A DNA stretch of 34,166 bases from Roseovarius sp. Its GTDB lineage: Bacteria; Pseudomonadota; Alphaproteobacteria; Rhodobacterales; Rhodobacteraceae. The stretch is from positions 1 through 34,166 of the forward strand of contig NZ_JAGPVV010000218.1 in NCBI RefSeq assembly GCF_018066915.1. The letters run 5' to 3'. The translations under genes and the position numbers were made by a program. Positions 3,311 through 34,166 of this stretch are shown here, one piece after another. The notes under the pieces are model-generated. The model was given only the letters and a program-made list of their open reading frames with translations. It was not told the origin of the DNA and made no database searches. Each line of letters begins with the position of its first letter. Position 1 is the first letter of the stretch.

Positions 3311-3315
3311 GATGG

Positions 3316-4611: not shown

Positions 4612-4656
4612 TTGACTGCGCCTCTGGTTGTGCTAGCCACATCAGGCAATTGTCAA
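4612..4656. promoter_or_regulatory. candidate overlapping divergent promoters (argG / membrane protein)
   Basis: TTGACT at 4612-4617 on the plus strand and TTGACA on the minus strand (plus TGTCAA, 4651-4656) face each other around a palindromic GCTAGC at 4632-4637. Each -35 is 15-16 bases from a TAGC-type -10 (TAGCCA rightward, TAGCAC leftward). The rightward start would fall near 4646, 22 bases before the membrane protein ATG. The -10 elements are weak, so this is a candidate only. Confidence 0.35.
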
Positions 4657-4667
4657 AAGGTGCGATT

Positions 4668-5405
4668 ATGGCGGCGTGGCGTATTTTCATCCATTCGGTG
4701 CAGATGATTTTCAACAACCTGCCGCAGGTGGTGCGCATTGTCTTGGTGCCGATGGGGATCGGGATTGCGGTGATCGCCCTGTTTGCGGTTCTGGGTGTCT
4801 CGATGGACGGGACGGATGCCGAGGGTGCGACGGGGGGACAGATCGCGGGGCTGATCCTCTTGGCGCTTGTCCTGATCGGTCTGGCGCTCTGGGTCATTGT
4901 GGCGTGGCACCGCTTTATCCTCTTGGCGGAATATCCCCGAGGCTGGGTGCCGATGCTGCGCACGGATCGCATGCTGTCTTATATCGGACATTCGCTCTGG
5001 CTTGGCCTTGTGATGATGGGCCTGATGTTGCCCCTCTTTCTGCTGGTTGGGGTTATTGGCGGGCTGGCCCCTCTGATTGTCACCATTGTGAGTGTCGTGG
5101 TGATTGTGGCGGCCAATGTGGTGTTCTTTCGGCTCTCGACGATGCTGCCTGCGGCGGCGATTGGACAGCCGCTTACGCTGAAAGAGGCGTGGACCGCGAC
5201 CGAAGGCAGCAGCGTCACGATCCTGATCCTTGTTCTCATTCTGGGTGCGGCGCAATTCGCGCTGCAGCTTTTGCTGGGGCTGCTGCTCTTGGCGCCGGTG
5301 ATCGGGGCCGTGTTGATGGTGCTGGGCACGGTGGTGTCGGGTCTGGTCAATATCAGCGTTCTGACCACGCTTTACGGCTATTATATCGAAAAGCGCGCGC
5401 TCTGA
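4668..5405 (+). CDS. uncharacterised integral membrane protein, about six helices
   Basis: I do not recognise a functional family. The 245 residues contain about six hydrophobic segments, near residues 22-44, 58-80, 107-130, 133-155, 183-205 and 206-230, so the protein sits in the inner membrane. Between helices 2 and 3 is a charged loop (WHRFILLAEYPRGWVP), and between helices 4 and 5 is AIGQPLTLKEAWTAT. This layout resembles bacterial six-helix proteins of unknown function that are sometimes described as glycerophosphoryl-diester or YciC-like membrane domains, but I cannot confirm that. The ATG at 4668 follows AAAGGTG at a suitable distance. It is followed 39 bases later by ilvA on the same strand and may be co-transcribed with it. 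Confidence 0.75.
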   Translation: MAAWRIFIHSVQMIFNNLPQVVRIVLVPMGIGIAVIALFAVLGVSMDGTDAEGATGGQIAGLILLALVLIGLALWVIVAWHRFILLAEYPRGWVPMLRTDRMLSYIGHSLWLGLVMMGLMLPLFLLVGVIGGLAPLIVTIVSVVVIVAANVVFFRLSTMLPAAAIGQPLTLKEAWTATEGSSVTILILVLILGAAQFALQLLLGLLLLAPVIGAVLMVLGTVVSGLVNISVLTTLYGYYIEKRAL

Positions 5406-5444
5406 GCCTTGTCAGGGGGGCACGATTGCGGCACTGAGGCGGGC

Positions 5445-6683
5445 ATGACCGAGTTTCAGGAAAATGCCCGCGCCGCAGAGGCCGCGATGCGCGCCGTGTT
5501 CGAGCCGACACCGCTCCAACGCAATGATCACCTGTCCGAGCGCTATGGCGCCGAGATCCTGCTCAAGCGCGAGGATCTGAGCCCGGTGCGCTCCTACAAG
5601 CTGCGCGGGGCGTTCAATGCGATGCGCAAGGTGCTGGCGGCGCGGCCGGAAACCGCGACATTTGTCTGTGCCAGTGCGGGCAATCACGCGCAGGGCGTGG
5701 CCTATATGTGCCGGCACTTTGGTGTCAAGGGCGTGATTTTCATGCCGGTGACGACGCCGCAACAAAAGATTGGCAAGACCGAGAAATTTGGCGGCGATGC
5801 GGTGGCGATCCGGCTGACGGGCGACTATTTCGACGACACGCTGGCGGCGGCGCAGGCCTATTGTGCGCAGGTGGGTGGGCATTTCCTGTCGCCCTTCGAT
5901 GATGAGGATGTGATCGAGGGTCAGGCCAGCGTTGCGGTCGAGATCGAGGCACAGTTGGGCGGGATGCCCGATCACCTCATTTTGCCGGTGGGCGGTGGCG
6001 GGCTCTCGGCGGGCGTGCGTAGCTATGTTGGCGCGCGCGTGGCGCTGACGCTGGTGGAACCGGCGGGGGGCGCGTGCCTGGGTGCGGCGCTGGCGGCGGG
6101 GGCGCCTGTGCGCTTGCGGCATGTGAACACCTTTGCCGATGGGGCGGCGGTGGCGCAGATCGGCGCGCGCACATTCGCGCGGCTGGCGGATCTTGATCCT
6201 GCGCAGGCGATGGTGATCGAAGAGGACCGGCTCTGCACCACCATGCTGGAAATGCTGAATATCGAGGGGATCGTGCTCGAGCCTGCAGGGGCGCTGGCGG
6301 TCGATGCGCTTAAGGATATGGCAGAGGCGATCCGGGGCAAGACGGTGGTGTGTGTTACCTCGGGCGGGAATTTCGATTTCGAGCGGTTGCCCGAGGTCAA
6401 GGAGCGGGCGCAGCGGTTTTCGGGTGTGAAAAAGTATTTCATCCTGCGGATGCCGCAGCGGCCCGGCGCGCTGCGCGAGTTTCTGGAGATTTTGGGACCA
6501 GAGGACGATATCGCCCGGTTCGAATATCTCAAGAAATCGGCGCGCAACTTTGGCTCTGTGCTGATCGGGATCGAGACGACGCGGCCCGAGAATTTTGCGC
6601 CGATCCTGACGCGGCTGGATGCGGCGGGTTTCGAGTATCGTGACATCACGCGGGATGAGGTGTTGGCAGAGTTCCTGATCTGA
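5445..6683 (+). CDS. ilvA: threonine ammonia-lyase (threonine dehydratase)
   Basis: A PLP enzyme that converts threonine to 2-oxobutanoate and ammonia, the first step toward isoleucine. The Schiff-base lysine is Lys52 in SYKLRGAFN; SAGNHAQGVAY binds substrate and GGGGLSAGV binds PLP phosphate. The catalytic domain takes about 330 residues and is followed by one ACT-like regulatory domain beginning at KYFILRMPQRPGALREFLE. The 412-residue length matches the shorter, single-regulatory-domain form rather than the two-domain enzyme of about 510 residues. The ATG at 5445 was chosen over an upstream GTG or ATG because it gives the normal N-terminus. It ends three bases before the convergent HPt gene. 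Confidence 0.94.
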   Translation: MTEFQENARAAEAAMRAVFEPTPLQRNDHLSERYGAEILLKREDLSPVRSYKLRGAFNAMRKVLAARPETATFVCASAGNHAQGVAYMCRHFGVKGVIFMPVTTPQQKIGKTEKFGGDAVAIRLTGDYFDDTLAAAQAYCAQVGGHFLSPFDDEDVIEGQASVAVEIEAQLGGMPDHLILPVGGGGLSAGVRSYVGARVALTLVEPAGGACLGAALAAGAPVRLRHVNTFADGAAVAQIGARTFARLADLDPAQAMVIEEDRLCTTMLEMLNIEGIVLEPAGALAVDALKDMAEAIRGKTVVCVTSGGNFDFERLPEVKERAQRFSGVKKYFILRMPQRPGALREFLEILGPEDDIARFEYLKKSARNFGSVLIGIETTRPENFAPILTRLDAAGFEYRDITRDEVLAEFLI

Positions 6684-6686
6684 GGG

Positions 6687-7022
6687 TCAGGCGGCGATGA
6701 CCTGTGCCAGACCGGCGATGAATTCGGATTTCGAGCGCGTGTAGCACTCGAGCACAGCGTCGAGGTCGATGCCCGCATGCTGGCCGGTGGCGGCGGCGCG
6801 TTCGCCCCGGTGGCACAGATCGGCAAAGGCGGCAAAGCCGAGATTGAGCGCGCTGCCCTTGAGGAAATGCAACAGCGCCTCGAGGTTTGCGCCGGCATCC
6901 GGCAGGCGCAGTTTCCCGATCTCGGTATCCACCTCGTCAAGAAAAAGCTCTACCACCTCGGCAAAGGCGTCAGCCCCGATTTCATCGCGCAGGTCCTGCA
7001 CGCGGCCCCAGTCGATCATCAT
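6687..7022 (-). CDS. stand-alone HPt (histidine phosphotransfer) domain protein
   Basis: A 111-residue protein that is almost only an HPt four-helix domain. HFLKGSALNLGF places the phospho-accepting His at about residue 52, with the Lys-Gly-Ser that normally follow it. Such proteins shuttle phosphate between a hybrid kinase and a response regulator. There is no kinase nearby. The divergent neighbour at 7162 is a receiver-phosphatase, which makes it the natural partner; this pairing is inference from position. The ATG pair at 7022/7019 follows GGAGGG. Confidence 0.88.
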   Translation of the reverse strand: MMIDWGRVQDLRDEIGADAFAEVVELFLDEVDTEIGKLRLPDAGANLEALLHFLKGSALNLGFAAFADLCHRGERAAATGQHAGIDLDAVLECYTRSKSEFIAGLAQVIAA

Positions 7023-7101
7023 CTACCCTCCGATACCTGCACCCAAGATTGGGCGCAAAGGGCTGATAAAGGGTTAAGCCGCGCCGAAAAGCCGTGCGAA
7101 T

Positions 7102-7124
7102 TTTAACATTCACCTCCTGTTAAA
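7102..7124. promoter_or_regulatory. inverted repeat in the divergent HPt / receiver-phosphatase region
   Basis: TTTAACA (7102-7108) and TGTTAAA (7118-7124) form a perfect 7-base inverted repeat with a 9-base spacer in an AT-rich patch of an otherwise GC-rich intergenic region. It lies between two divergent genes, so it could be an operator for both. No known regulator is recognised. Confidence 0.35.
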
Positions 7125-7161
7125 TCCTGCGGGCCTAGGAAAGGGGGCGGACAGTGCAAAG

Positions 7162-8448
7162 GTGGCCCGAGTGCGATCACGAGTGGAACAGGCGGCAGAG
7201 GCGGATGCAGGCGGCGGGGTGATCCAGCGCGTTCTGGTGGTGGATGACAGCCGATTGCAGCGGCGGATTCTGACCGCCTCGTTGCAGCGCTGGGGATTCG
7301 AGGTGCAAGAGGCGGATTCGGGCGAGGAGGCGCTGCGGCTCTGTCGGGATCATCCGCCCGATCTGGTGATGAGCGACTGGATGATGCCGGGGCTGAGCGG
7401 GCTTGAATTCTGTCGGCGATTCAGAGAGATGCCGCGTGAGAGCTATGGCTATTTCATCCTCCTGACCTCGAAGAGCGACAAGGATGAGGTGGCGCTGGGC
7501 CTTGATGCCGGGGCGGATGATTTTCTGACCAAGCCGGTCAATGCCGCCGAATTGCGGGCGCGGATTTCGGCGGGGGCGCGTATCCTGCGGATGCAGCGCG
7601 AGCTGACCGAAAAGAACAGGCTGATCAAATCGACGCTGGATGAATTGCAGACGCTCTATGATTCGCTCGACAGCGATCTGATCGAGGCGAAGAAGCTGCA
7701 ACAATCGCTGGTGAGCGAGCGCTATCGCGATTTTGGCGCGGCAGAGGTGTCCTTGATGTTGCAATCGGCAGGGCACGTGGGCGGCGATCTGGTGGGGATG
7801 TTTCCGATTGGGGCCACGCGCATCGGACTCTATGGCATTGACGTGTCAGGGCATGGGATCAGTTCGGCGCTGATGACGGCGCGGTTGGCGGGGTATCTGT
7901 CGGCCTCTGTGCCCGAGCAGAACCTCGCCCTACGCAAGACGCGCGATGGTCGGTTCGTGGCGCGCCCGCCCGCGCAGGCGATTGCGATGCTGAATCGGTT
8001 GATCATGTCAGAGATGGAGACCGAGCATTATTTCACCCTCGTGCTGGCCGATGTCGATCTGGAAACCGGGCGGGTGATCCTGTCTCAGGCGGGGCATCCG
8101 CATCCGGCGTTGCAGCGGGCCGATGGCACGGTGGAATTTGTTGGCGCGGGCGGCTTGCCGGTGGGCCTTATTGACGGGGCCGAGTTTGAGCAATTCGAGG
8201 TGCAGATGGGGCCGGGCGACCGGCTCTTGATCCATTCCGACGGGGTGATCGAGTGTGCGGGCCAATCCGGCGCGCTGTTGCAGGAGGAGGGGCTGGCCGC
8301 GATCCTGCGCGATCTGCGGCAAACGCGTGGCATGGCGCTGCTCGAATCGCTGATCTGGAAACTGTCGGAATTTGCCGGGGATGCCGAGTTTACCGATGAT
8401 ATTTCCGGTGTTCTGCTCGAATTCAAAGGCAGCGGATTTCCCGGCTGA
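7162..8448 (+). CDS. response regulator with PP2C-type (RsbU/SpoIIE-like) phosphatase output
   Basis: The N-terminal receiver has acidic Asp28/Asp29 (VLVVDDS), phospho-acceptor Asp72 (VMSDWMMPG) and Lys124 (FLTKPVN). A coiled-coil linker follows (about residues 140-190). The C-terminal domain carries the PP2C metal-binding Asp motifs VGGDLVG, DVSGHGISSALM, HSDGVIE and FTDDIS. Proteins of this build usually dephosphorylate an anti-sigma antagonist, so phosphorylation of the receiver is coupled to a sigma switch. No anti-sigma or antagonist gene is visible here. The start is uncertain: GTG at 7162 gives 428 residues, while GTG at 7219 begins right at the receiver. A 22-codon frame from a GTG at 7154 with a strong AAGGGGG site ends in a GTGA overlap with 7219. 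The 3' end overlaps the convergent NUDIX gene by 26 bases. Confidence 0.9.
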   Translation: MARVRSRVEQAAEADAGGGVIQRVLVVDDSRLQRRILTASLQRWGFEVQEADSGEEALRLCRDHPPDLVMSDWMMPGLSGLEFCRRFREMPRESYGYFILLTSKSDKDEVALGLDAGADDFLTKPVNAAELRARISAGARILRMQRELTEKNRLIKSTLDELQTLYDSLDSDLIEAKKLQQSLVSERYRDFGAAEVSLMLQSAGHVGGDLVGMFPIGATRIGLYGIDVSGHGISSALMTARLAGYLSASVPEQNLALRKTRDGRFVARPPAQAIAMLNRLIMSEMETEHYFTLVLADVDLETGRVILSQAGHPHPALQRADGTVEFVGAGGLPVGLIDGAEFEQFEVQMGPGDRLLIHSDGVIECAGQSGALLQEEGLAAILRDLRQTRGMALLESLIWKLSEFAGDAEFTDDISGVLLEFKGSGFPG

Positions 8449-8866
8449 CGAAATGCCGGTCCCCGGCATTGCCCAGCTCCTGCGCCGCCTGATCGGGTGT
8501 GATCCAGACCGCGCGATGACCCGGCTCGCTGGGGGGGCCCAGCCGCCGAACCGGATGGGCGCGGTAGATGATGCAGAGCTTTTCCGCCCAGAACCCGTAT
8601 TCCGGCATATAGGTAAAGCGGCGAAACGCGCCCAACCGCCGGGGCCGGGCGATGAGCCAGCCGGTTTCCTCGAATACCTCGCGATAGAGCGCCTGCACCG
8701 GTGATTCGCCGGGATCAATGCCACCGCCGGGCAATTGCAGCTCTCGCAGCGGTTCCGCCTGATGGGTCACGAGCAGCCGGCCGCGATGCGGCAGGATGGC
8801 GTAGGCGCCGGGGCGCAGGCGATAGGCCACTTCGGGCCGCGGGCTATCTCCGAATCGTCTGATCAT
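8423..8866 (-). CDS. NUDIX hydrolase
   Basis: Nudix enzymes cleave nucleoside diphosphates linked to another group. The 23-residue Nudix box is complete, from GGIDPGE through the REVFEETGW end, near residues 59-82 of a 147-residue protein. The substrate cannot be read from the sequence. The ATG at 8866 has GAGAGG in front; a frame extending to 8944 would run through the promoter region and overlap the hslO start. It is divergent from hslO (76 bases between starts) and its 3' end overlaps the receiver-phosphatase gene. Confidence 0.87.
   Translation of the reverse strand: MIRRFGDSPRPEVAYRLRPGAYAILPHRGRLLVTHQAEPLRELQLPGGGIDPGESPVQALYREVFEETGWLIARPRRLGAFRRFTYMPEYGFWAEKLCIIYRAHPVRRLGPPSEPGHRAVWITPDQAAQELGNAGDRHFVSREIRCL
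8452..8470. other. perfect hairpin just after the receiver-phosphatase stop
   Basis: AATGCCGG (8452-8459) and CCGGCATT (8463-8470) form an 8-base perfect stem with a 3-base loop, three bases past the stop of the plus-strand gene and inside the end of the convergent NUDIX gene. There is no T run, so it is not a classic intrinsic terminator. It may protect the 3' end of the mRNA. Confidence 0.35.
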
Positions 8867-8942
8867 CTGGCACCTCTCTTGGGGTTGGCTTGTCCTGACG
8901 GTACAGGCGCGATATGCCAAGTCGAGACCCAAAGGAAAGCCC

Positions 8943-9941
8943 ATGACACTTGGACAGAAAATCGCTTGGGATGATACGATCCTGCCCTTTCAGCTTGACC
9001 GCGCCGATATTCGCGGGCGGGTCGTGCGCCTTGATGGGGTGCTGGACGGGATTCTGAAACAGCATGATTATCCACCGCAGGTCGAGGCGTTGATCGCGGA
9101 AATGGCTCTTTTGACCGCCTTGATCGGCCAGACGATCAAGCTGCGGTGGAAGCTGTCGTTGCAGGTGCAAACGCGCGGCGCGGTGCGGATGATCGCCACC
9201 GATTACTATGGCCCGACCGAGCCGGGAGAGCCTGCGCGCATGCGCGCCTATGCCAGTTTTGACCGGGAGCGGCTGACGCATGCGCGCCCGTTCGATCAGC
9301 TGGGCGGCGGATATTTCGCGGTCATGCTGGATCAGGGACAGGGCACGACGCCTTATCAAGGGATCACGCCCATCGCCGGTGAGGCGCTGCGCCACTGTGC
9401 CGAGGCGTATTTTGCCCAGTCCGAGCAATTGCCGACGCGCTTTGCGCTGAGTTTCGGGAAGTCCACCGAAGCGGGGGGCGTGGAGCATTGGCGCGCGGGC
9501 GGTGTCATGCTGCAACATATGCCCAAGGCTTCGCCCTTTGCCAATGATGGCGGGTCGGGCGATGGTGGGCTGCTGCAGGCCGAGGATATTCTGGAAGGCG
9601 ACGATGCCGAGAACTGGACTCGTGCCAATGTCCTGCTCGATACGGTCGAGGATCTGGAGCTGATCGGGCCATCGGTCGCGCCGACGGATCTGTTGGTCCG
9701 GCTGTTTCACGAAGAGGGGCCGCGGGTTTTCGACATGCAGGCGGTGCGGTTTGGCTGCACCTGTTCGGAGGAGCGGGTGCGCAACAGCCTGTCGATTTAT
9801 TCGGCGCGCGATATCGCGACCATGACGACGCAAGAGGGGCTTGTGACCGCCGATTGCCAGTTTTGCGGGGCGCATTACCGGCTTGACCCGGCGACGGTCG
9901 GGTTCGAGGCCAAGGATGACGGGGCCGGGGGCGGTGACTGA
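8943..9941 (+). CDS. hslO: Hsp33, redox-activated holdase chaperone
   Basis: A cytoplasmic chaperone that is turned on when oxidation and unfolding release zinc from four cysteines. The cysteine motifs are CTC (in FGCTCSEERV) and CQFC (in ADCQFCGAHY), in the C-terminal redox switch, as in all Hsp33. At 332 residues it is slightly longer than E. coli Hsp33 (about 290), with an extra Gly/Asp-rich tail. The ATG at 8943 follows AAAGGAAA. It begins a plus-strand run with the NUDIX, CCA-type and RNA methyltransferase genes; the next gene starts inside its last codons. Confidence 0.95.
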   Translation: MTLGQKIAWDDTILPFQLDRADIRGRVVRLDGVLDGILKQHDYPPQVEALIAEMALLTALIGQTIKLRWKLSLQVQTRGAVRMIATDYYGPTEPGEPARMRAYASFDRERLTHARPFDQLGGGYFAVMLDQGQGTTPYQGITPIAGEALRHCAEAYFAQSEQLPTRFALSFGKSTEAGGVEHWRAGGVMLQHMPKASPFANDGGSGDGGLLQAEDILEGDDAENWTRANVLLDTVEDLELIGPSVAPTDLLVRLFHEEGPRVFDMQAVRFGCTCSEERVRNSLSIYSARDIATMTTQEGLVTADCQFCGAHYRLDPATVGFEAKDDGAGGGD

Positions 9942-10521
9942 TCCGCTTGATCGGGTGCTGGGCGCGCTGCGGGCCGCGCGGACGCCCTCGTCGGATTATG
10001 ATCTCAATCCCGGTGTTGTCCTGCCCGAGGGGCGCAAATTGCGGGCGGCGGCGGTTTTGGTGCCGGTGCGCGAGGGGCGTGTGATTTTGACGAAGCGATC
10101 GTCAAAGCTCCGGCATCATCCGGGGCAGATTGCCTTTCCGGGGGGCAAGCAGGATGCGGGCGATCCTGACATCACCACCACGGCGCTGCGCGAAGCGGAG
10201 GAGGAAATCGGGCTCGACCGGCGCAGCGTTGAGGTGCTGGGGTTTCTGCCTCGGCATGAGACTGTGACCGGGTTTGACGTGACGCCGGTTCTGGCGCGGG
10301 TTCATGGGGCGTTTCAGCCCCGTGCCGAGCAGGGCGAGGTCGATGAGGTGTTCGATGTGCCGCTGGCGCATGTGCTCGAGTTGGGCCGATACAGGGTCGA
10401 AAAGCGGCGCTGGCGCGGGGACTGGCGGCGCTATTATGCGGTCCCCTATGGCCCCTATTACATCTGGGGGGCCACGGCGCGCATTTTGCGTAATCTGGCG
10501 GATCTGGCGGGGCCGGAATGA
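9916..10521 (+). CDS. NUDIX hydrolase of the CoA pyrophosphatase type
   Basis: Probably splits coenzyme A or its derivatives to phosphopantetheine and 3',5'-ADP. The protein has the CoA-type signature directly before the Nudix box: ILTKRSSKLRHHPGQIAFPG, which matches the LLTxRxxxLRxHxGQxxFPGG pattern of this subgroup. It continues into ALREAEEEIGL with the metal-binding glutamates. The start is uncertain between ATG 9916 and GTG 9934; both overlap the end of hslO. Its stop overlaps the following CCA-type gene (ATGA), so translation is coupled. Metal-dependent CoA hydrolysis is inferred from the motif. Confidence 0.88.
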   Translation: MTGPGAVTDPLDRVLGALRAARTPSSDYDLNPGVVLPEGRKLRAAAVLVPVREGRVILTKRSSKLRHHPGQIAFPGGKQDAGDPDITTTALREAEEEIGLDRRSVEVLGFLPRHETVTGFDVTPVLARVHGAFQPRAEQGEVDEVFDVPLAHVLELGRYRVEKRRWRGDWRRYYAVPYGPYYIWGATARILRNLADLAGPE

Positions 10522-11663
10522 AGGTTTCCGGCGCATGGATCGAGTCTAGGGCGACCCAAGCGGTCTGTGCGATGCTGACCGAGGGCGGGTATCAGGCGTT
10601 CTTTGTCGGCGGGTGCGTGCGCAATGCGCTCTTGGGCATGCCGGTGGGGGACGTGGATATCGCCACCGATGCGCGGCCCGACGTGGTGATGAAACTGGCC
10701 ACGGCGGCGGGGCTGAAGCCGGTGCCGACGGGCATCGAGCATGGCACGATTACAGTGGTTTCGAGCCATATCGGGCATGAGGTGACGACGTTTCGCGAGG
10801 ATGTGCAGACATTCGGTCGGCATGCGGTGGTGGCCTTTGGCACGGATATCGGCACCGATGCGCGGCGGCGGGATTTTACCATGAATGCGCTTTATGCCCG
10901 GCCTGACGGCAGCGTGGTCGATCCTCTGGGGGGGCTGGAAGACCTGCGCGCGCGGCGGGTGCGATTCATCGAGGATGCGGAGCAGAGGATTCGCGAGGAT
11001 TACCTGCGAATCCTGCGGTTTTTCCGGTTTCACGCCTGGTATGGCGATCCCGAAGGCGGGCTCGATGCAGAAGGGCTGGCGGCGGCTGCGGGCAATGTCG
11101 ACGGGTTGGCGCGCCTCTCGCGTGAGCGGGTGGGGGCGGAAATGCGCAAGCTCTTGGCGGCACCTGATCCGGCCCCTTCGGTTGCGGCGATGCAGGCGGC
11201 GGGGGTGTTGCACGGGGTTTTACCGGGCAGTGATGCGCGGGGTTTGACCCTGCTGGTGCATTTGGAATCAGAGACAAACACGGCCCCGGACGCAATTTTG
11301 CGGCTGGCTGCATTGGGTGGTGACGCGGTGGCAGAGCGGTTGCGCCTGTCGCGGGCAGAGGCGCGGCGGCTGGATCTTTTGCGCGCGGCGGCGGCGGAAA
11401 CGACGCAGGCGGCGGAATTGGGGTATCGCCACGGGGCCGAGGACGGCCGGGCGGTTCTATTGCTGCGCGCGGCGCTGTTGGAGATGCCGTGGCGTGCCCG
11501 CGATGCCGAAGATTTGGCCCAAGGGGCCGAGGCGCGGTTTCCGGTGACGGCAGCGGACCTTATGCCGGAGTATTCCGGCCAAGAGCTGGGCGCGCGGTTG
11601 CAGGAATTGGAGCAGGCTTGGATCGCGTCGGGATTTACGCTGACGCGCGATGACCTCCTCTGA
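10518..11663 (+). CDS. cca: CCA tRNA nucleotidyltransferase / poly(A) polymerase family protein
   Basis: Class II nucleotidyltransferase, most likely adding CCA to tRNA 3' ends. The head domain has FFVGGCVRNALLG and the metal-binding DVDIAT (both carboxylates), then RRRDFTMNALY and the neck motif EDYLRILRFFRFHAWYG. The 381-residue length suits the alphaproteobacterial enzymes that lack the HD domain of E. coli Cca. The encoded tRNA in this window carries its own CCA, so the enzyme would act mainly in repair. A poly(A) polymerase role cannot be excluded from the sequence alone. It overlaps the upstream NUDIX gene by four bases. Confidence 0.9.
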   Translation: MKVSGAWIESRATQAVCAMLTEGGYQAFFVGGCVRNALLGMPVGDVDIATDARPDVVMKLATAAGLKPVPTGIEHGTITVVSSHIGHEVTTFREDVQTFGRHAVVAFGTDIGTDARRRDFTMNALYARPDGSVVDPLGGLEDLRARRVRFIEDAEQRIREDYLRILRFFRFHAWYGDPEGGLDAEGLAAAAGNVDGLARLSRERVGAEMRKLLAAPDPAPSVAAMQAAGVLHGVLPGSDARGLTLLVHLESETNTAPDAILRLAALGGDAVAERLRLSRAEARRLDLLRAAAAETTQAAELGYRHGAEDGRAVLLLRAALLEMPWRARDAEDLAQGAEARFPVTAADLMPEYSGQELGARLQELEQAWIASGFTLTRDDLL

Positions 11664-11705
11664 GCGGGCTTTCATGGCGCGGCGATGCGAGTTAAAGGCG
11701 CAGGC

Positions 11706-12929
11706 ATGAGCGAGCATGACATCATACGGTTGGGGCATCAGGGCGACGGCATTGCCGAGGGGCCGGTTTACGCGCCCATAACCCTGCCCGGCGAGCGGGT
11801 TTCGGGCGCGCTGAACGGGAATACCCTGACCGATGTTCGGATCATCACGCCATCCTCGGACCGGGTGAGCGCGCCCTGTCGGCATTTTCGGACCTGCGGC
11901 GGCTGTCAGGTGCAACATGCCTCTGACGGATTTGTCGCCGGCTGGAAAGTGGAGGTGGTGCGTGCGGCGCTGACGGCGCATGGCATCACGGCAGAGTTTC
12001 TGCCGATCCACGTCTCGCCGCCGCGATCCCGGCGGCGGGCGTCCTTTGCTGCGAAACGCACGAAAAAGGGCGCAATGGCCGGGTTTTATGCCCGTGGCAG
12101 CGACGTGATCATCGAGGTGCCGGACTGTCATTTGCTGCATCCCGAGGTGATGCGCGGGCTGACTGTGGCCTCTGATCTGGCCGAGGTGGGGACCAGCCGC
12201 AAGGCGGCGCTGGCGGTCAGCGTCACGCGGTCCCTCGTAGGGTTGGATGTGGCGGTGGCCGAGGGCAAGCCGCTGGATGGGCCGCTGCGGATTGCCCTGG
12301 CGGCGCTGGCCGAGCGGCATGATCTGGCGCGGCTGGCCTGGGGCGACGAGGTGGTTGTGACACGGCGCGCGCCGGTGCAGGCGTTTGGCGCGGCGCGGGT
12401 GGTGCCGCCGCCGGGCGCGTTTTTGCAAGCGACGCCCGAGGGCGAGGCCGCACTTTTGGCGGAAACAGAGACTATTCTGGCGGGGGCGCGGCGAATTGTC
12501 GATCTCTTTGCCGGGTGCGGCACCTTTGCGCTGCCGCTGGCGCAGCGGGCACAAGTGCACGCGGTCGAAGGTGAGGCGGCGATGCTGGAGACGCTCGATA
12601 CCGGGCGGCGCGGCATTGCGGGGCTGCATCCGCTGAGCACCGAGGCGCGGGATCTCTTTCGTCGACCGCTCTTGCCTGATGAGTTGGCGCGGTTCGATTC
12701 GGCGGTGATTGATCCGCCGCGCGCCGGGGCTGAGGCGCAGATTGCGGAAATCGCGCGTTCGGGCCTGCCCCGGCTAGCCTATGTATCCTGTAACCCGGTG
12801 ACATTTGCCCGCGACGCCAAGCTGTTGATCGCGGCGGGTTATGCGATGGGGCCGGTGCGCGTTGTGGATCAATTCCGCTGGTCGGCGCATGTGGAATTGG
12901 TGGCCGGATTCACGCTGAACAAGGCGTGA
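11706..12929 (+). CDS. 23S rRNA (uracil-C5) methyltransferase, RumA/TrmA family
   Basis: Uses SAM to make 5-methyluridine in RNA, most likely at position 1939 of 23S rRNA (RlmD-type). The [4Fe-4S] cysteines are seen at Cys58, Cys64 and Cys67 (CRHFRTCGGCQ), plus a later one in VPDCHLL. The SAM site is VDLFAGCGTFALPLA, and the catalytic Cys lies in YVSCNPVTFARD with the preceding DPPRAG. The TRAM domain at the N-terminus is short, as usual in this group. The 407-residue length fits. The ATG at 11706 was chosen because GHQGDGIAEG begins right after it. It is 42 bases downstream of the CCA gene. Confidence 0.9.
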   Translation: MSEHDIIRLGHQGDGIAEGPVYAPITLPGERVSGALNGNTLTDVRIITPSSDRVSAPCRHFRTCGGCQVQHASDGFVAGWKVEVVRAALTAHGITAEFLPIHVSPPRSRRRASFAAKRTKKGAMAGFYARGSDVIIEVPDCHLLHPEVMRGLTVASDLAEVGTSRKAALAVSVTRSLVGLDVAVAEGKPLDGPLRIALAALAERHDLARLAWGDEVVVTRRAPVQAFGAARVVPPPGAFLQATPEGEAALLAETETILAGARRIVDLFAGCGTFALPLAQRAQVHAVEGEAAMLETLDTGRRGIAGLHPLSTEARDLFRRPLLPDELARFDSAVIDPPRAGAEAQIAEIARSGLPRLAYVSCNPVTFARDAKLLIAAGYAMGPVRVVDQFRWSAHVELVAGFTLNKA

Positions 12930-28647: not shown

Positions 28648-28723
28648 GCCGCTGTAGCTCAGCTGGTAGAGCACGTCATTCGTAATGATGGGGTCGGGGG
28701 TTCGAGTCCCTTCAGCGGCACCA
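28648..28723 (+). tRNA. tRNA-Thr (anticodon CGT)
   Basis: A complete 76-base cloverleaf with encoded CCA. The acceptor stem GCCGCTG pairs with CAGCGGC, the D arm is GCTCAGCTGGTAGAGC, and the anticodon stem 28674-28678 pairs with 28686-28690 around loop TTCGTAA, with CGT at 28681-28683 reading ACG threonine codons. The T arm holds GGTTCGAGTCC. The integrase gene starts 100 bases downstream, so this tRNA is the probable integration site of the element. Confidence 0.97.
28700..28723 (+). other. candidate left attachment core within the tRNA 3' end
   Basis: P4-type integrases normally recombine within the T arm and acceptor end of a tRNA gene, leaving the tRNA whole. The likely core is the T-loop-to-CCA segment of tRNA-Thr. 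No second copy is in the window, so the exact limits cannot be seen. Confidence 0.5.
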
Positions 28724-28740
28724 CTTTCCTGTCCAAAATC

Positions 28741-28821
28741 ATCCGATGACATCCGAAAGCGCTTTGTTTATAAGTGTTTTTGCGATGCAGGTTGTCCTAT
28801 GCTGTGCAGCTGTATCCGATG
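28741..28821. repeat. ATCCGA repeats between tRNA and integrase, possible arm or operator sites
   Basis: ATCCGATG occurs at 28741-28748 and 28814-28821, and ATCCGAAAG at 28751-28759. The first two start ten bases apart, one helical turn, and the third is just before the integrase ATG. They could be integrase arm-type sites or operators for int. Confidence 0.4.
28747..28774 (+). promoter_or_regulatory. candidate integrase promoter
   Basis: TGACAT (28747-28752) and TATAAG (28769-28774) are separated by 16 bases, a fair match to the vegetative promoter, about 50 bases before the integrase ATG at 28824. The -35 overlaps the ATCCGA repeats, which would allow autoregulation. Confidence 0.4.
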
Positions 28822-28823
28822 GA

Positions 28824-30020
28824 ATGCCCCTGACTGACACCCAGATTCGAAACCTCAAGCCCAGAGACAAGGCCTACAAAGTCACTGACTTTCAGGGGCT
28901 CTATGTCACGGTCGCGCCTTCAGGCTCGCGGCTGTGGCACATGAAGTACCGGATTGATGGCCGGGAAAAGCGTCTGTCGTTTGGGGCTTACCCTGCGGTC
29001 TCGTTGGCGCAAGCCAGAAAGCTGCGCGACGAGGCTCGTTCACGGCTTGCAGCAGGTGAAGATCCCGGAGAGGTCAAGAAGGAAGACAAGCGCCATAAGC
29101 AGATCATTCGCGAGACCACGTTCAAGAAACTTGCCGAGGCTTACAAGGAGAAGGCAGAGAAGGAAGGCCGGGCCGAAGCAACCAAGGTAAAGACCGAGTG
29201 GCTCCTGGGGATGGCTATTGCGGCCTTTGGGGACAAACCGATTGAAGAGGTGACGTCTCCAATGGTTCTCGCCTGTCTTCGTAAGGTCGAGTCGAAGGGG
29301 AACCATGAGACGGCAAAACGTTTGCGGGCCAAGATCGGCGCGGTTTTCCGCTATGCTATCGCGTCCGGCGTCGCCGAGAACGATCCTACGTTCGCTCTAC
29401 GTGATGCCCTGATCCGACCCAAAGTCAAATCCCGCTCTGCAATCACAGACCCGGAAATCCTTGGCGGCCTGCTGCGTGCTATCGATGGATTTCAAGGCCA
29501 AGCCACAACGCGGATCGCTCTGCAGTTTCTCGCTTTCGTCGCCCAGAGGCCGGGAGAGGTGCGGCAGGCCACTTGGGCGGAGTTTGATCTTGAAAAGGCG
29601 ATCTGGATTATCCCTGCTGACAGAATGAAGATGCGCATGCCGCATTCTGTGCCCCTGTCCGCGCAGGCTATAGCTCTGCTGAAAGAGTTAATGCCTATCA
29701 CGGGTCATGGGAGTTTCTTGTTTCCATCCCTGCGCTCCACGCAGCGACCGATGAGCGAGAACACATTGAATGGCGCGCTCCGTCGTTTGGGTTACGATGG
29801 TGATGAGATGACAGCACATGGTTTCCGTGCAACATTCTCGACCTTGGCCAATGAAAGCGGCCTATGGAACCCGGACGCCATTGAGCGCGCGCTGGCCCAT
29901 GTCGATGGTAACAAGATCCGCCGCATCTATGCCCGAGGCGAGTACTGGGAAGAGCGTGTCAGATTGGCGAACTGGTGGGCTGGATATTTGGATGAGGTGA
30001 AGGCAGGATCCTCCAACTAG
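28824..30020 (+). CDS. tyrosine integrase, P4 type (DUF4102 arm-binding N-terminus)
   Basis: Site-specific recombinase that inserts and removes the element at the tRNA. The 398 residues have the N-terminal arm-binding domain (LTDTQIRNLKPRDKAYKVTD, LSFGAYPAVSLAQARKLRDE), a core-binding SAM-like region, and the catalytic domain with Arg242 (QRPGEVRQATW), His332 and Arg335 (AHGFRATF), His359 (LAHVDGNK) and Tyr369 (RRIYARGEY). All catalytic residues are present, so it looks active. The start is ATG 28824 at the canonical N-terminus; a frame to 28746 adds 26 unrelated residues through the promoter region. Confidence 0.96.
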   Translation: MPLTDTQIRNLKPRDKAYKVTDFQGLYVTVAPSGSRLWHMKYRIDGREKRLSFGAYPAVSLAQARKLRDEARSRLAAGEDPGEVKKEDKRHKQIIRETTFKKLAEAYKEKAEKEGRAEATKVKTEWLLGMAIAAFGDKPIEEVTSPMVLACLRKVESKGNHETAKRLRAKIGAVFRYAIASGVAENDPTFALRDALIRPKVKSRSAITDPEILGGLLRAIDGFQGQATTRIALQFLAFVAQRPGEVRQATWAEFDLEKAIWIIPADRMKMRMPHSVPLSAQAIALLKELMPITGHGSFLFPSLRSTQRPMSENTLNGALRRLGYDGDEMTAHGFRATFSTLANESGLWNPDAIERALAHVDGNKIRRIYARGEYWEERVRLANWWAGYLDEVKAGSSN

Positions 30021-30038
30021 CGTTAGAAGGATGGTCAC

Positions 30039-30977
30039 ATGTCAAACGAACCGTCGCGGGCGTATATCACGACGAAGATATTGCAACGTCGCTATGGCAG
30101 GCTTCTGAAATGGAAAAAACCTGTCATCCACGACATCAGAGGTCCGTACCATCCGGACGTATTTGATGGCTTTGCTTTTGATTTGGCTCTTTCAATCAAG
30201 GTCTGCAAGGAAACCTTGCAGGACATGACGGACGCGGAGTTTTTCGACCGCTTCGACCTCAGGGGAGAGGTCAGCAACCCAGCGAATACCATGGCAGAAC
30301 GCCTCACGCTCTCTGAGCTGAGAGCGGTGTTCAGGCAGGAACCGGTCTGGTTTGCGGGCGGTTTCGGCGTTGAAGGCCGCGAAGCAGATGTGCAGCACTG
30401 GGCAAGAATGCAAAGGTGGTCCTTAAACGAAGCTGCCGCTCTTTCCATTGGATTTGAACCCTGTGGCGACTTGCTGGAGGGGACCGACGGGATGCCGGTT
30501 CAAAGTGATGTTCTTGCCTTCTACTTCAAAAGACGCGCTTTGATCGAAGACAACTTTGATTGGGGCAATGTTGCTGACTCATGCAGAAATAGCGTGCCGG
30601 ACGTGGTGCGTTGGTTTGATCAGGTTAAGCTGGACGTGCCGGAACAGCTTTTGGCAGCTGCTGACAAATACCATGCTCTGGAAATTGGAAAGAAATTAAG
30701 GCTGGGCCGAGCCAGTACAGCTGATGATAAGCACGTGGACCCCAGAGAAAGGTCCACAATGCTGAAGCTGATTATCACCATGGCTGTGAGAGGATATGGA
30801 TACGATCCCAAGGCAGAACGCAGCACAATTCCTTCTGAAATCGAATCAGACATGAATCTTCTCGGCATCGGGATCACTCTTGAGACCGTCAGAAAGCATC
30901 TCAAGAGTGGGTCAGCGCTGCTTTGTGATGAGGTATTGGAAGATATTGGGACCTCTGGTCGGATTAAGAAGGATTAG
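30039..30977 (+). CDS. uncharacterised 312-residue island protein
   Basis: I do not recognise a function. The protein is soluble-looking, without signal or membrane helix. Two segments look familiar from uncharacterised proteins of prophages and islands: MQRWSLNEAAALSIGFEP (near residues 127-144) and the C-terminal RERSTMLKLIITMAVRGYGY followed by a segment on EIESDMNLLGIGITLETVRK, which reads like a small winged-helix module. This resemblance is from memory. It starts 18 bases after the integrase stop, so it is probably co-transcribed, and its last codons contain the first copies of the GGANTA repeat array. Confidence 0.8.
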   Translation: MSNEPSRAYITTKILQRRYGRLLKWKKPVIHDIRGPYHPDVFDGFAFDLALSIKVCKETLQDMTDAEFFDRFDLRGEVSNPANTMAERLTLSELRAVFRQEPVWFAGGFGVEGREADVQHWARMQRWSLNEAAALSIGFEPCGDLLEGTDGMPVQSDVLAFYFKRRALIEDNFDWGNVADSCRNSVPDVVRWFDQVKLDVPEQLLAAADKYHALEIGKKLRLGRASTADDKHVDPRERSTMLKLIITMAVRGYGYDPKAERSTIPSEIESDMNLLGIGITLETVRKHLKSGSALLCDEVLEDIGTSGRIKKD

Positions 30978-31061
30978 AACCCGCGTTAAGGCGGAATAAG
31001 TCGGACTAGATCCCTATTTGGTTAGTGAAAACACTGATCGCCCTCCTACTTGGTCGGACTT
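30958..31061. promoter_or_regulatory. helically phased GGANTA repeats upstream of the AlpA-type gene
   Basis: GGATTA at 30961 and 30971, GGAATA at 30993, GGACTA at 31003 and GGACTT at 31056. Three of them are extended to GTCGGAYTW (30958, 31000, 31053). Distances are 10, 22, 10 and 53 bases, close to whole helical turns, so bound proteins would sit on one face. A natural reading is an operator array for the AlpA-type regulator. Confidence 0.45.
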
Positions 31062-31103
31062 GGCAACATCACCTCAGACGCAATCGCTATGAGGTGCACC
31101 AAA

Positions 31104-31382
31104 ATGCCCAACATACCCTTTCCCCTGACAGGCTATGTCCGCTTGTCGTCCATTCTGGCCCCGAAAGGGCCGATCCCCGTTTCCAAATCGACTTGGTGGC
31201 AGGGCGTCAAGGATGGCCGCTTCCCCAAACCTCGCAAGCTGGGGCCCTGCACGACTGTCTGGACGGCAGAGCAAATTCGCGCTCTGTATGAGACTGAGAA
31301 TGCAGGCGTTGGTCACCGATGCTCAGTGTGCGGGACTGTACGCAACAACGCGACCCAAGATACGCGTGTGACCTCAAAATGA
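31104..31382 (+). CDS. AlpA-type excisionase / prophage regulator
   Basis: A 92-residue helix-turn-helix protein of the AlpA/MerR-like excisionase kind, which in satellites and prophages activates or directs excision. The core is GYVRLSSILAPKGPIPVSKS, then TWWQGVKDGRFPKPRKLGP and VWTAEQIRALYE, the usual order of recognition helix, wing with FPKP, and final helix. It has an unusual C-terminal tail with a CSVC pair. The ATG at 31104 follows GAGGTG, which decides the start; upstream ATGs lack such a site. Its stop overlaps the next ATG (ATGA). Confidence 0.85.
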   Translation: MPNIPFPLTGYVRLSSILAPKGPIPVSKSTWWQGVKDGRFPKPRKLGPCTTVWTAEQIRALYETENAGVGHRCSVCGTVRNNATQDTRVTSK

Positions 31383-32242
31383 GTATTCTTTACCTCAACA
31401 ATGCCTTCAACGCCATTGATCTGGCGCCAACCCCTCGCTTTGTTCTTTTGGCTCTGGCAGATCATGCTGATGCCGCTGGGCGCTGTTATCCCTCCATTGC
31501 TCGCCTAGCGCAGCGCACTGGTCTCAGCCCCCGATCTATTCAGGCAAGCATCAAGAAACTCCGGGCCAAGGGATATATTGACGTGGAGGTGAACGCGGGG
31601 AAGCGCGGCACAAATGTTTATGTCTTGCGTTCGACACCTGCAGGAACTGCACCCCCGAAAGAGATGCACCCCGCAGGAGATTCAACTCACCCCCGCAAAA
31701 GCTGCACCCCCTCCCCCGCAGGAGCTGCACCCGAACCATCATCCAATCGTCAAAAACCGTCAGAAGAAAACCCCCTTTCCCCCGTGGTCGATCCTGAGCG
31801 AGTGGATCAGTCCAAACTCACGCCTGAGCACCGGACGACAAGCGCAAAAGGAAACCATGCCACAAAAGTGAAGGGTGGTATCGCGGACGGCTATGTCGAC
31901 GTCGAGGCTGAGTTTGAAGCGGTCTACCGGCACTACCCGCGCAAAACCGCAAACGGGGCAGCGCGGAAAGCTTGGATAAAGGCGCGCCGCGTAGCGGCCT
32001 TCATCGAGATCACCGAGCCACTTTTCCAGTGGATTTCGTTGCAACGAGAAACCGAGATGAAGTTCATCCCATATTTCTCAACTTGGCTGAACGAAGAGCG
32101 CTGGAAGGACGACCAAGATCATGCGAGCGCCCGTGTTGCGACCACCTCCGATCGCCTGAACCGGCTGGGAGACTCGACCGAATTTAATCGCAGCATCCCT
32201 ATTCTTGGGCTCGACCTCTCAGCAATCGAGAGGAAGAGCTGA
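31379..32242 (+). CDS. winged-helix replication-type protein (phage O-like), with internal DNA repeats
   Basis: A 287-residue protein. The N-terminal 80 residues form a winged helix (RFVLLALADHADAAGRCYPS, then TGLSPRSIQASIKKLRAKGY and a wing), as in phage and plasmid replication starters. A Pro-rich disordered linker (about 88-150) is coded by a stretch with five DNA repeats. The C-terminal domain (about 175-250) has FEAVYRHYPRKTANGAARKA and FIPYFSTWLNEERW, a pattern common in phage replication O-like proteins. This resembles lambda O, whose gene contains the origin. The start at 31379 overlaps the AlpA stop; the stop overlaps the next ATG (TGATG). Confidence 0.75.
   Translation: MSILYLNNAFNAIDLAPTPRFVLLALADHADAAGRCYPSIARLAQRTGLSPRSIQASIKKLRAKGYIDVEVNAGKRGTNVYVLRSTPAGTAPPKEMHPAGDSTHPRKSCTPSPAGAAPEPSSNRQKPSEENPLSPVVDPERVDQSKLTPEHRTTSAKGNHATKVKGGIADGYVDVEAEFEAVYRHYPRKTANGAARKAWIKARRVAAFIEITEPLFQWISLQRETEMKFIPYFSTWLNEERWKDDQDHASARVATTSDRLNRLGDSTEFNRSIPILGLDLSAIERKS
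31640..31733. repeat. five direct DNA repeats inside the replication gene (candidate origin iterons)
   Basis: Copies begin at 31640, 31657, 31673, 31695 and 31718 around the motif GCAGGAGCTGCACCCCC. Spacings are 17, 16, 22 and 23 bases. The repeats fall in different reading frames, so they are kept as DNA and not as peptide. An A-rich patch (about 31746-31770) follows, as in lambda-type origins. Confidence 0.6.
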
Positions 32243-32829
32243 TGGAAGATCCGGTTTACGACAACATAACAAAGCAGGTGTTCGATTTTCTCTATGGTGA
32301 TCCGAATGGTGTTCTGAGGCGCTTCCGCGTGCACGAACACCTAGGTGATGATCAACTGAGAGCTGAGATCATCGACCTTGTAGAGGACATCAAACGTCAA
32401 ATTCCCGATGGCTTCTCCGCTCCGGAATTGCAGTTGCTCTTTCCGGAACTCAGCCGAGCACTCCGACGCCTCCACGCGGCCCAATACTGGCCGCCTGCCA
32501 AGACGTTCATCGCGGCTACGCAAGAGGCCGTGAGGAGAGTGAATGAACTTCGGGCAAAGGAGCGGGTCCTGCGAAATGAGGGAAAACCGAAAGCGGACGA
32601 GCTATCCATTTTGGAAACGAAAATGATGAAGAGGCAGCCCGTTCCGGAACCCGTGCTCTGGGGACCACAGGCGGCTGAACTGATGAAACGCGGTCGGATT
32701 GATAAGGCAGCATTCGAAAGTTACCGTAAAGATGCATATGAGGCGCGGGTTAGGCAGTATGGGCGCGAACAAGCGGAAAAGTGGCTTTCCGAGCGTGAGA
32801 CTTGGCACATCAAAGCGGCGCAGAGTTGA
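32242..32829 (+). CDS. uncharacterised 195-residue island protein
   Basis: I do not recognise a family. It is soluble, charged and mostly helical. The central segment APELQLLFPELSRALRRLHA is followed by a helix-rich basic region, and the C-terminal part (QAAELMKRGRIDKAAFESYR) is a small helical unit. Its ATG overlaps the replication gene stop (TGATG), so it belongs to the same operon and may be a replication partner such as a helicase loader; that is inference from position. There is no Walker motif. Confidence 0.75.
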   Translation: MEDPVYDNITKQVFDFLYGDPNGVLRRFRVHEHLGDDQLRAEIIDLVEDIKRQIPDGFSAPELQLLFPELSRALRRLHAAQYWPPAKTFIAATQEAVRRVNELRAKERVLRNEGKPKADELSILETKMMKRQPVPEPVLWGPQAAELMKRGRIDKAAFESYRKDAYEARVRQYGREQAEKWLSERETWHIKAAQS

Positions 32830-32871
32830 CGAAATGGTTCATGCTTGTCCGGCGCTCTTCACCCCCCTAAT

Positions 32872-32910
32872 GTCAATCACATTGACCGAAGAGGCATCGC
32901 TATCTATCGT
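32872..32910 (+). promoter_or_regulatory. inverted repeat with a candidate rightward promoter, facing the terminase gene
   Basis: GTCAAT (32872-32877) and ATTGAC (32881-32886) form a perfect inverted repeat. The right arm overlaps TTGACC (32882-32887), which is 17 bases from TATCGT (32905-32910). Transcription from here would run antisense into the 3' end of the terminase gene. Confidence 0.3.
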
Positions 32911-32982
32911 AAAACCAACGGGGCTGACTTCCAATTCCGGGCCGGGTCTCTGAACATCGTTCATCCCCGCCGTCGCTTACCC

Positions 32983-33003
32983 AAAGCGGGCCCCGTTGCT
33001 TTT
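32983..33003 (+). terminator. weak terminator-like hairpin between convergent genes
   Basis: AAAGCGG (32983-32989) can pair with TTGCTTT (32996-33002), including two G-U pairs, around a GCCCCG loop, with TTTT at the end. It is in the gap of 223 bases between the convergent operon and the terminase gene. No coding frame there is convincing. Confidence 0.3.
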
Positions 33004-33052
33004 GCGCTGCCGCCACATCCACAGACTTTTGTGTCGCACGCGCGCTGTCCTA

Positions 33053-34021
33053 TCAAGGCTCGGGATAGTCGCCACTTTCTCCGTCATCTCGAGAGAAATG
33101 CAAGTCTTCGATCTCAGAGACGTCCTCAATTGCGTTCAGGTAGTTTGGCGAAAGTTGTAAATCCTCGTCTGGAACGACAGGCACGGTGCCTGACTGAGCC
33201 ATTAGCCTGCGGGCAAGTTGCTCGAGCGGGTTCTCGATCTCATCCGTCAACCGACTAGCGAACATGCCGAAATATTTGGCGATGTTCTCGAGCGCTTTGA
33301 TTCGGTCTGCGAAAACCACTTCAATGCCATGAGGGGTCTTTTTAATCCCCTGTATGATTAGACGCGCCTCAGGACTCAAAAGGTCCGTGTCGGTGATCTC
33401 CAAAATCGGCGGCCCGCCACGGCCCCTGCATTCAGGGCACTCGGCTTTTGGGACACCTCGAATGTCAAAACCAAAGCCGCCATCGCAGTTGGGAAGGCTT
33501 GGGTCTGTTGTCTTACCATCGCTGATCGCGGTTGCCATATCGGAGCTGTCTCCGGCCGTGAGGCCAATGCAGAGTTCAGCAACGGCACGGTCATGCGCTT
33601 CGCGGAACTCGCGCTTGGTCGTCCACTGGAACGCATGGTTGATGCCGTGACAGTATCGGCAGGGCGGCACATGCAGCTTGACAACTTCGGTGATGGGCAT
33701 ATTGGCGATGGTCCACCACTTGCTCACGATCTCCTCCTGCGTGATGCGGGTGGCCAGCATGGTGCGGCGACCATGCAAGGTGATGATTTCCTGCATGATG
33801 GGCGATTTGATCAGAGCATGGGCGTTGCGGCGGTAGGTGTTGTAGCTCGATTTCGAAACGTCATAGGCGTGACGATACGCGCCGGTCACGTTCCTGTGTC
33901 GTAGGTAGTGGTGAATGAACGCCTGCTGCTTGACGGTGAGCGATCCGGTCAAGGCCTCGATCTGGTCGTCCAACGCCTGAGCAGCGCCGTCTTCTACCTC
34001 TGCCGAAAACTGCAGTGTCAT
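33053..34021 (-). CDS. phage terminase small subunit with zinc-binding insert
   Basis: Recognises the packaging site of phage DNA. The N-terminal helix-turn-helix region (about residues 25-90) has LTVKQQAFIHHYLRHRN and SYNTYRRNAHALIKSPIMQE, typical of this family. Residues 121-198 form a zinc-binding insert with CRYC at 121-124 and CPEC at 195-198, plus NCDGGFGF, a layout known in a subset of small terminases. The C-terminal part has KKTPHGIEVVFADRIKALENIAKYFGMFA. The ATG at 34021 follows GAGG; an ATG at 34084 lies within the promoter. Its downstream neighbour is the convergent island operon, so there is no large subunit gene after it. Confidence 0.88.
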   Translation of the reverse strand: MTLQFSAEVEDGAAQALDDQIEALTGSLTVKQQAFIHHYLRHRNVTGAYRHAYDVSKSSYNTYRRNAHALIKSPIMQEIITLHGRRTMLATRITQEEIVSKWWTIANMPITEVVKLHVPPCRYCHGINHAFQWTTKREFREAHDRAVAELCIGLTAGDSSDMATAISDGKTTDPSLPNCDGGFGFDIRGVPKAECPECRGRGGPPILEITDTDLLSPEARLIIQGIKKTPHGIEVVFADRIKALENIAKYFGMFASRLTDEIENPLEQLARRLMAQSGTVPVVPDEDLQLSPNYLNAIEDVSEIEDLHFSRDDGESGDYPEP

Positions 34022-34055
34022 TGTCAAATCCTCAGGTTTCGTGCGTTGATGCACA

Positions 34056-34084
34056 ATAACACCATTTCTGCGGATCGAGAACAA
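34056..34084 (-). promoter_or_regulatory. candidate promoter of the terminase small subunit gene
   Basis: On the minus strand TTGTTC (34079-34084) and TGTTAT (34056-34061) are separated by exactly 17 bases. Transcription would begin near 34049, about 28 bases before the ATG at 34021. This makes the terminase gene a separate unit. Confidence 0.5.
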
Positions 34085-34095
34085 CTATTCGCACA

Positions 34096-34112
34096 GTAGC
34101 TATTTTGTAGCT
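34096..34112. promoter_or_regulatory. direct repeat GTAGCT upstream of the terminase promoter
   Basis: GTAGCT occurs at 34096-34101 and 34107-34112, 11 bases apart, about one helical turn. It lies just upstream of the candidate -35, where an activator would bind. Confidence 0.3.
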
Positions 34113-34166
34113 GTGTGTGGGTGTTCTTTGTCAAAGTGAGCCAAGCTTAACAGGCGCAATCCATTG

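Follow-up and report, generated by a model that had tools for sequence, protein, structure and literature searches.

Descriptions of phage satellites come from enterics, vibrios and staphylococci, and further ones have been proposed in a few other groups, according to the available excerpts of the reports (PMC6092414, PMC10803314, PMC11389934). The same excerpt of the first report states that some phage-inducible chromosomal islands (PICIs) carry a gene for a small terminase (terS). Here, we describe an element in the genome of Roseovarius sp., a member of the Rhodobacteraceae (assembly GCF_018066915.1, 363 contigs). The window, i.e. the whole stretch of DNA that was analyzed, comprises 34,166 bp and is the entire contig NZ_JAGPVV010000218.1 (C346). 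The element starts at a tRNA-Thr(CGT) gene, and its right part lies outside the window because the window is the whole contig. It is probably the left part of an integrated satellite that resembles PICIs and phage-inducible chromosomal minimalist islands (PICMIs), and that has captured a phage small terminase (TerS). We consider this the best reading because of the anatomy of the element, the absence from the assembled genome of any clear large terminase (TerL) other than one that resembles that of a gene transfer agent (GTA), a likely right attachment site (attR), and the recurrence of TerS without TerL in the family. Our literature searches covered open-licence papers. They brought up no report of phage satellites in Rhodobacter, Rhodobacterales or Rhodobacteraceae, and no SatelliteFinder satellites in Alphaproteobacteria. 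The query for phage-inducible islands in this class returned only papers on Streptomyces and Wolbachia, and among papers on Roseobacter prophages, satellites or terminases none was about phage satellites, judged by title or the start of the abstract.

Rightward from the tRNA-Thr(CGT) gene (28648..28723, plus strand), the element contains an integrase gene (int), orf312, the gene for an AlpA-like regulator, the gene for an O-like replication initiator (rep) and orf195, followed by terS in leftward orientation. A preliminary description of this DNA had listed an integrase at a tRNA, an AlpA-type regulator, a replication-type gene and a small terminase, and ARAGORN, Pfam and PHROG confirm both the genes and their orientation. 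It had also noted that the small terminase stands without an adjacent large one, and this holds: terS reads toward the convergent rep operon. The 223 bp between the stop codons of orf195 (32829) and terS (33053) contain no callable gene, so that no gene on the same strand follows terS before the convergent operon. On the other side, contig C346 stops 82 bp past the open terS frame. The earlier claim that terS has its own promoter is not supported. It reflects gene orientation only, and a consensus scan of the region from terS to the contig end (34022..34166, minus strand) found no promoter-like site.

The left attachment core is formed by the 3' end of the tRNA gene and the next 13 bp (33 bp in total, 28704..28736, plus strand). 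A near-copy is present on another contig, C212 (10815-10846, minus strand, E 3.1e-6), oriented as an attR should be. The copy lacks one base, and its longest exact piece is 19 bp. It is likely, from sequence and orientation, to be the right attachment site. Following the element beyond position 34166, as had been suggested, has thus led to a likely attR, but the middle of the element lies in an assembly gap. With 5.4 kb in the window and 0.65 kb on C212, the element measures at least about 6.1 kb. With 0.548 in its window part and 0.524 at its C212 end, its GC fraction is below that of the flanks (0.636 and 0.626). The 649 bp of C212 inside the repeat contain the end of a gene for a UvrD-like helicase, which PADLOC matches best to GajB helicases. 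However, this motif is general and the matches are unspecific. For gap filling, 96 of the 363 contigs were read, C346 included, with reading limited to the first 20 kb of any longer contig; eight of the 96, all shorter than 3 kb, consist of N. Contig C221 (L311), which opens with the end of a UvrD-like gene, was considered as a gap filler, and was dropped as we could not demonstrate that it joins C346 or C212.

The tRNA-Thr gene follows a gene that we take to be HemY-like, both in the window and in seven of seven scanned stretches from relatives, all of which had been chosen for matching this region. To the right of the tRNA, the sequence of one relative (L188 and L210, G010:C67, at a contig end) resembles the post-tRNA sequence of the window, and the contig ends soon after. 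Judging from this similarity, G010:C67 may carry a related integrase element at tRNA-Thr. Other relatives hold other genes in this place. In G003, which belongs to the same genus, the same tRNA-Thr is occupied by an 11.8-kb element (L215, G003:C2:3777100-3797099, 736-12529) bounded by a 24-bp exact repeat. Its order is C5 methylase, unassigned genes, TerL, TerS (phrog_309), DUF5906 primase, HTH_17 gene and integrase; no portal, capsid or tail gene was recognized among the open reading frames scanned. The G003 element thus brings a TerL of its own, whereas none is present in what can be seen of the window element.

The terS gene (33053..34021, minus strand, frame open from 34084) codes for a small terminase with a zinc-finger-like CxxC..CxxC insert. 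The intact minus-strand reading frame (34084-33053) scores 60 bits against PF03592 and 84 bits against phrog_51, and the protein keeps 33 of the 40 columns that are conserved among 48 relatives. Its sequence profile matches, over the first 86 positions, the solved small terminase 3zqp (E 5e-19). The predicted model (pLDDT 85) has the TerS of Itty13 as its top viral fold match (E 1.5e-20); a Foldseek search against the PDB gave nothing significant. The insert is shared with the TerS proteins of Itty13, Parlo and BcepMigl and of three plasmid records. The closest relative, at 45% identity, comes from L065, a viral contig of 61 kb. There, terS belongs to a block in which it is followed by a small gene, terL, and the portal and capsid genes. 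The tree pairs the two TerS proteins with a support of 100/99. As the preliminary description had assumed for prophages, terL normally follows terS: among the best 80 of 501 viral relatives, some of which are near-identical copies, it lies downstream on the same strand in 78 contigs (68 by profile, 10 by eye), and the other two end too early. The same is true for the Itty13, Parlo, Aquitalea, Acinetobacter and BcepMigl records, with a distance of about 5 kb in BcepMigl. Compared with the 78 viral contigs that could be judged, the terS gene of the window is inverted. The single-protein scan with TerS detected no relative in the genome_contigs or viral_contigs sets. Named bacterial genomes were searched for TerS by single protein only, which gave two of 60 genomes, including the Roseovarius genome itself.

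In the assembled genome, the search for terL and portal genes turned up a GTA-like TerL as the one clear match, and only a chance match to a portal protein. The phrog_2 profile has one clear match, on contig C259 (E 1e-21), and two weak ones (E 0.02 and 0.1). The same C259 gene is the only match of phrog_9 (E 0.02), and phrog_15 matches nothing at E 0.1. With the TerL of L065 as the query there was no match at E 1 or better, and the L065 portal protein gave only the chance match (E 0.18). From its neighbor and by resemblance, we take the C259 protein to be a GTA terminase; the sole clear large terminase of the assembled genome thus looks like a GTA component. Downstream of this gene, where a portal gene is expected, there are what we take to be a transposase-like gene and, on the opposite strand, a thyX-like gene (L146, G000:C259:2345-3496), and the GTA cluster of the Roseovarius genome may be split.

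These searches bear on the possibility that the element is a complete prophage with terL and structural genes inside the assembly gap. The gap is real, and the fetched contigs below 3 kb read N. However, a prophage needs tens of kb, so that some contigs of at least 3 kb should hold a TerL or portal gene, and the TerL searches and the single portal search revealed no clear TerL besides the GTA-like one and no portal of the L065 type. Moreover, terL follows terS in the 78 judged relatives, whereas terS here faces a convergent rep operon. A full prophage is therefore very improbable.

The combination of a TerS gene with no recognizable TerL gene is not confined to the window. The TerS profile was run on 394 Rhodobacteraceae genomes from a larger group, the Roseovarius genome included, with matches accepted at E 1e-8 or better. 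At most six candidates per genome were scored, and the resulting counts, at least 17 loci in at least 16 of the 394 genomes, are lower bounds. A TerL adjoins TerS at six of the 17 loci (G177, G212, G222, G145, G361, G236). None is recognizable at ten, namely the window locus, G148, G413, G447, two loci in G418, G382, G085, G416 and G415, on the basis of tblastn searches with known TerLs, visual inspection and phrog_2 (no match on the TerS contig in eight genomes). The remaining locus (G253), whose contig ends 2.2 kb on, was assigned to neither class. Among the loci without TerL, the zinc-finger-like insert is present, by motif, only in the window, G148, G413 and G447.

At the G148 locus, a rep gene of phrog_270 adjoins a TerS gene of phrog_51, the same two families as in the window, and a UvrD-type helicase and a PD-(D/E)XK protein are encoded next to them. 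In G382, the end of a primase gene (DUF5906 just below cutoff) is followed by TerS, and in G085 TerS comes after an integrase. TerS stands more or less alone in G413 and G447, the G416 locus is remnant-like, and in L252 the gene lies among apparent host genes. In G001, of the same genus as the window, toprim and DUF3987 genes precede a frame-broken TerS. Two related loci of G418 (L257, L258) contain int, an AlpA-like gene, a helicase, a toprim primase and near-identical TerS genes, one of them together with hsdM as type I methylase cargo; profile scans were run on L258, and the other locus was read by tblastn and by eye. Direct repeats of at least 15 bp flanking the G148 and G418 elements were not found in the chosen stretches.

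An orphan gene of the TerS family was also seen on a plasmid of Rhodobacteraceae bacterium S2214 (L011, CP081164.1, 14219-15046), beside the type VI secretion genes vgrG, PAAR and DUF4123. In the 35 kb shown, no terL follows it. The plasmid and the L252 locus bear on an alternative, according to which the Roseovarius element is a defense or genomic island and TerS a decoy that disturbs the packaging of infecting phages, with no transfer of the island itself. TerS outside recognizable phages would suit such a role, as would the UvrD-like helicase end with its GajB matches at the right edge of the element. The set of integrase, AlpA and replication genes serves transfer, however, and the matches of the helicase are unspecific. 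We regard a pure defense function as improbable.

A tree of TerS proteins (47 rows) contains ten rows without TerL. These are the S2214 plasmid and the ten loci above except G416, which was left out. They require seven label changes, of which at least three, gains or losses, are forced by well-supported branches. No bootstrap tree groups them, although some rows are long and 22 of the 44 inner branches are weak. Because the tree does not unite these TerS proteins, they look like a recurrent design rather than a single lineage. The exact order int, orf, alpA, rep and orf with opposing terS, which had been proposed as a search pattern, was not found in any other locus examined. Tentatively, and with slightly less than even confidence, we suggest that Rhodobacteraceae hold undescribed polyphyletic satellites, in which phage TerS genes were captured separately and joined to unrelated cores of integrase, AlpA and replication genes (O-like initiator, toprim, DUF3987, DUF5906). 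The gain of TerS would then be the repeated step from an integrative island to a packaging parasite.

The other genes of the element are in keeping with an integrated mobile unit. The tyrosine integrase (28746..30020, plus strand; phrog_1) has Arm-DNA-bind_3, Phage_int_M and Phage_integrase domains, all above the Pfam cutoffs, and its conserved part starts near 28824. The AlpA-like regulator or excisionase (31050..31382, plus strand, start likely near 31104) matches PF05930 with 20.6 bits, just below the cutoff of 21 (E 4e-4), and had no match in the PHROG scan. The open frame between the two, orf312 (30039..30977, plus strand), has no functional assignment: there is no Pfam, PHROG or PADLOC match and no relative in phages, and a single viral contig matches weakly over 51 residues (E 3e-4). 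Distant relatives of orf312 sit between int and AlpA genes in two plasmid records. In the available excerpt on PICMI115, a gene that overlaps int and precedes alpA is reported to be essential for excision (PMC10803314), which, together with the position of the orf312 relatives, provides a lead to the role of orf312.

The initiator gene rep (31379..32242, plus strand; HTH_36) belongs to phrog_270 (replication initiation); the scan, which used a start further upstream at 31319, gave E 2.5e-35. It is followed by orf195 (32242..32829, plus strand), a neighbor of rep in viral contigs. The stop codon of alpA and the start codon of rep share the sequence ATGA, and orf195 overlaps rep by one base, so the three genes probably form a single operon. 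Pfam and PHROG scans of the window genes, which cover the assembled left part, gave no primase domain match. Within rep (31634..31734, plus strand) there are four imperfect copies of a 23-nt iteron-like repeat, with 70-78% identity to the reference copy, as a possible replication origin. The lambda-type origin is likewise located inside the O gene.

A relative of rep adjoins the relative of orf195 in all 12 viral contigs that encode the latter, some of which are copies of one another. Further down, these contigs have a Nu1-type TerS, followed in 11 of the 12 by a gpA-type TerL; the remaining one (L177) ends with the TerS match. The single-protein scan with orf195 found no relative in viral_contigs, and a whole-genome search found relatives in nine of the 394 family genomes, the Roseovarius genome included. 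Since rep and orf195 go with phages of the Nu1-type TerS and gpA-type TerL, and the TerS of the window is of another type, the element mixes modules of two phage types. By sequence, its initiator appears to derive from gpA-type phages, and its TerS from the 61-kb phage type of L065. In Maritimibacter fusiformis (L026), distant relatives of int, alpA, rep and orf195 occur in the same order. The 12.3-kb element concerned (L171, 5971-18311 in L026) lies at tRNA-Glu and also encodes a neck protein, a Nu1-type TerS and a head-protease-like fragment. A first view of this element as a sister satellite was qualified on account of the head-protease fragment after TerS, and a deleted prophage appears as likely as a satellite with a scaffold-like gene.

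The mixed origin of the modules could also mean that the window holds a decayed prophage or a patchwork island, with TerS and rep as leftovers of different phages that are no longer mobile as a unit. The M. fusiformis element, which has the look of a prophage that underwent an internal deletion, is an argument in this direction, and the L252, G416 and G001 loci indicate that decay does occur. The window genes are open, however, and the overlaps of alpA, rep and orf195 are operon-like. TerS retains most of the conserved columns, and the inverted terS differs from the arrangement in the viral contigs. On balance, decay is rather unlikely.

The satellite interpretation, which was already favored in the preliminary description, draws on the anatomy, the missing terL beyond the window, the likely attR and the recurrence in the family. 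Several observations weigh against it. The assembly lacks the middle of the element, and the eight fetched contigs shorter than 3 kb all read N, so genes in the gap are invisible. No C212 protein is encoded within 20 kb to the right of tRNA-Thr in seven relatives, and the pairing of C346 with C212 thus depends on the repeat. The phrog_2 profile missed the TerL beside TerS in two of the six positive loci (G212, G361). No structural or lytic genes were recognized in the assembled ends, and no genome-wide search was aimed at capsid, tail or lysis genes. No packaging site was identified on the element, no helper prophage was seen in the Roseovarius genome, and the 20 kb around the G148 locus showed neither int nor AlpA.

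If the element is a satellite, its life cycle can be envisaged as follows. The integrase would use the 3' end of tRNA-Thr(CGT). Upon a helper signal, integrase and AlpA would excise the element, with orf312 and AlpA probably acting in excision and activation. The excised DNA would be replicated by rep and orf195 from the repeats within rep. On infection by a helper phage whose packaging system is related, TerS would bind the satellite DNA at a packaging site and recruit the TerL of the helper, and the satellite DNA would be packed into helper particles and carried by them. The right end would be cargo, a UvrD-like helicase of a kind that is also seen in defense systems. The use of the helper's TerL is known from Staphylococcus aureus pathogenicity islands (SaPIs).

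Rhodobacteraceae are known for their gene transfer agents. If our interpretation is correct, they would also move genes via hijacked phage particles, with restriction and defense-like cargo. Repeated TerS capture would make the route from an island to a packaging parasite testable, and the L065 phage type provides a concrete helper candidate.

Like the Gram-negative PICIs exemplified by EcCICFT073, the element has an integrase, AlpA and a replication module and no structural genes seen in the window, as far as the available part of the report describes these islands (PMC6092414). In contrast to them, it has an O-like rep instead of Pri-Rep, and its terS is convergent with the rep operon. The host is alphaproteobacterial, whereas the Gram-negative PICIs in this part of the study all reside in Gammaproteobacteria (PMC6092414). 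Integrase, replication module and regulator, which define PICIs by their conserved order, are all present, with AlpA just under the Pfam cutoff. PICIs are also expected at sites that prophages never use; the same tRNA-Thr is occupied by the satellite-like element in G003 and adjoined by other genes elsewhere. The PICI size is about 12-15 kb, compared with at least about 6.1 kb for the element, the rest of which is in the assembly gap.

With the PICMIs of Vibrionaceae, the element shares the order of int, an extra gene, alpA and a replication gene, according to the portion of the report at hand (PMC10803314). The PICMI model given there demands a DUF3987 or DUF5906 primase and a fis site (PMC10803314), whereas the element has an O-like initiator, tRNA-Thr and TerS. 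Neither primase is encoded by the window genes of the assembled left part, where rep is of the phrog_270/HTH_36 type, and the integration site is not beside fis, but at a tRNA-Thr that follows the HemY-like gene. As the order of int, extra gene, alpA and replication gene matches both PICIs and PICMIs in these excerpts (PMC6092414, PMC10803314), and as the tree does not unite the TerS proteins that lack a TerL, the earlier suggestion of a new satellite family is too strong.

The SaPIs that have their own TerS are similar in that the satellite TerS is expected to direct the packaging of satellite DNA, as the excerpt indicates (PMC6092414). They differ in their unrelated replication genes, and in that no Stl/Rpr-type repressor or capsid-size gene was seen in the assembled part of the element. 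Finally, phages of the F116, Itty13 and BcepMigl type and the IMG/VR contig L065 share with the element the TerS family with the CxxC..CxxC insert. In these phages and in L065, unlike in the element, terS is followed by terL and, where visible, by portal and capsid genes.

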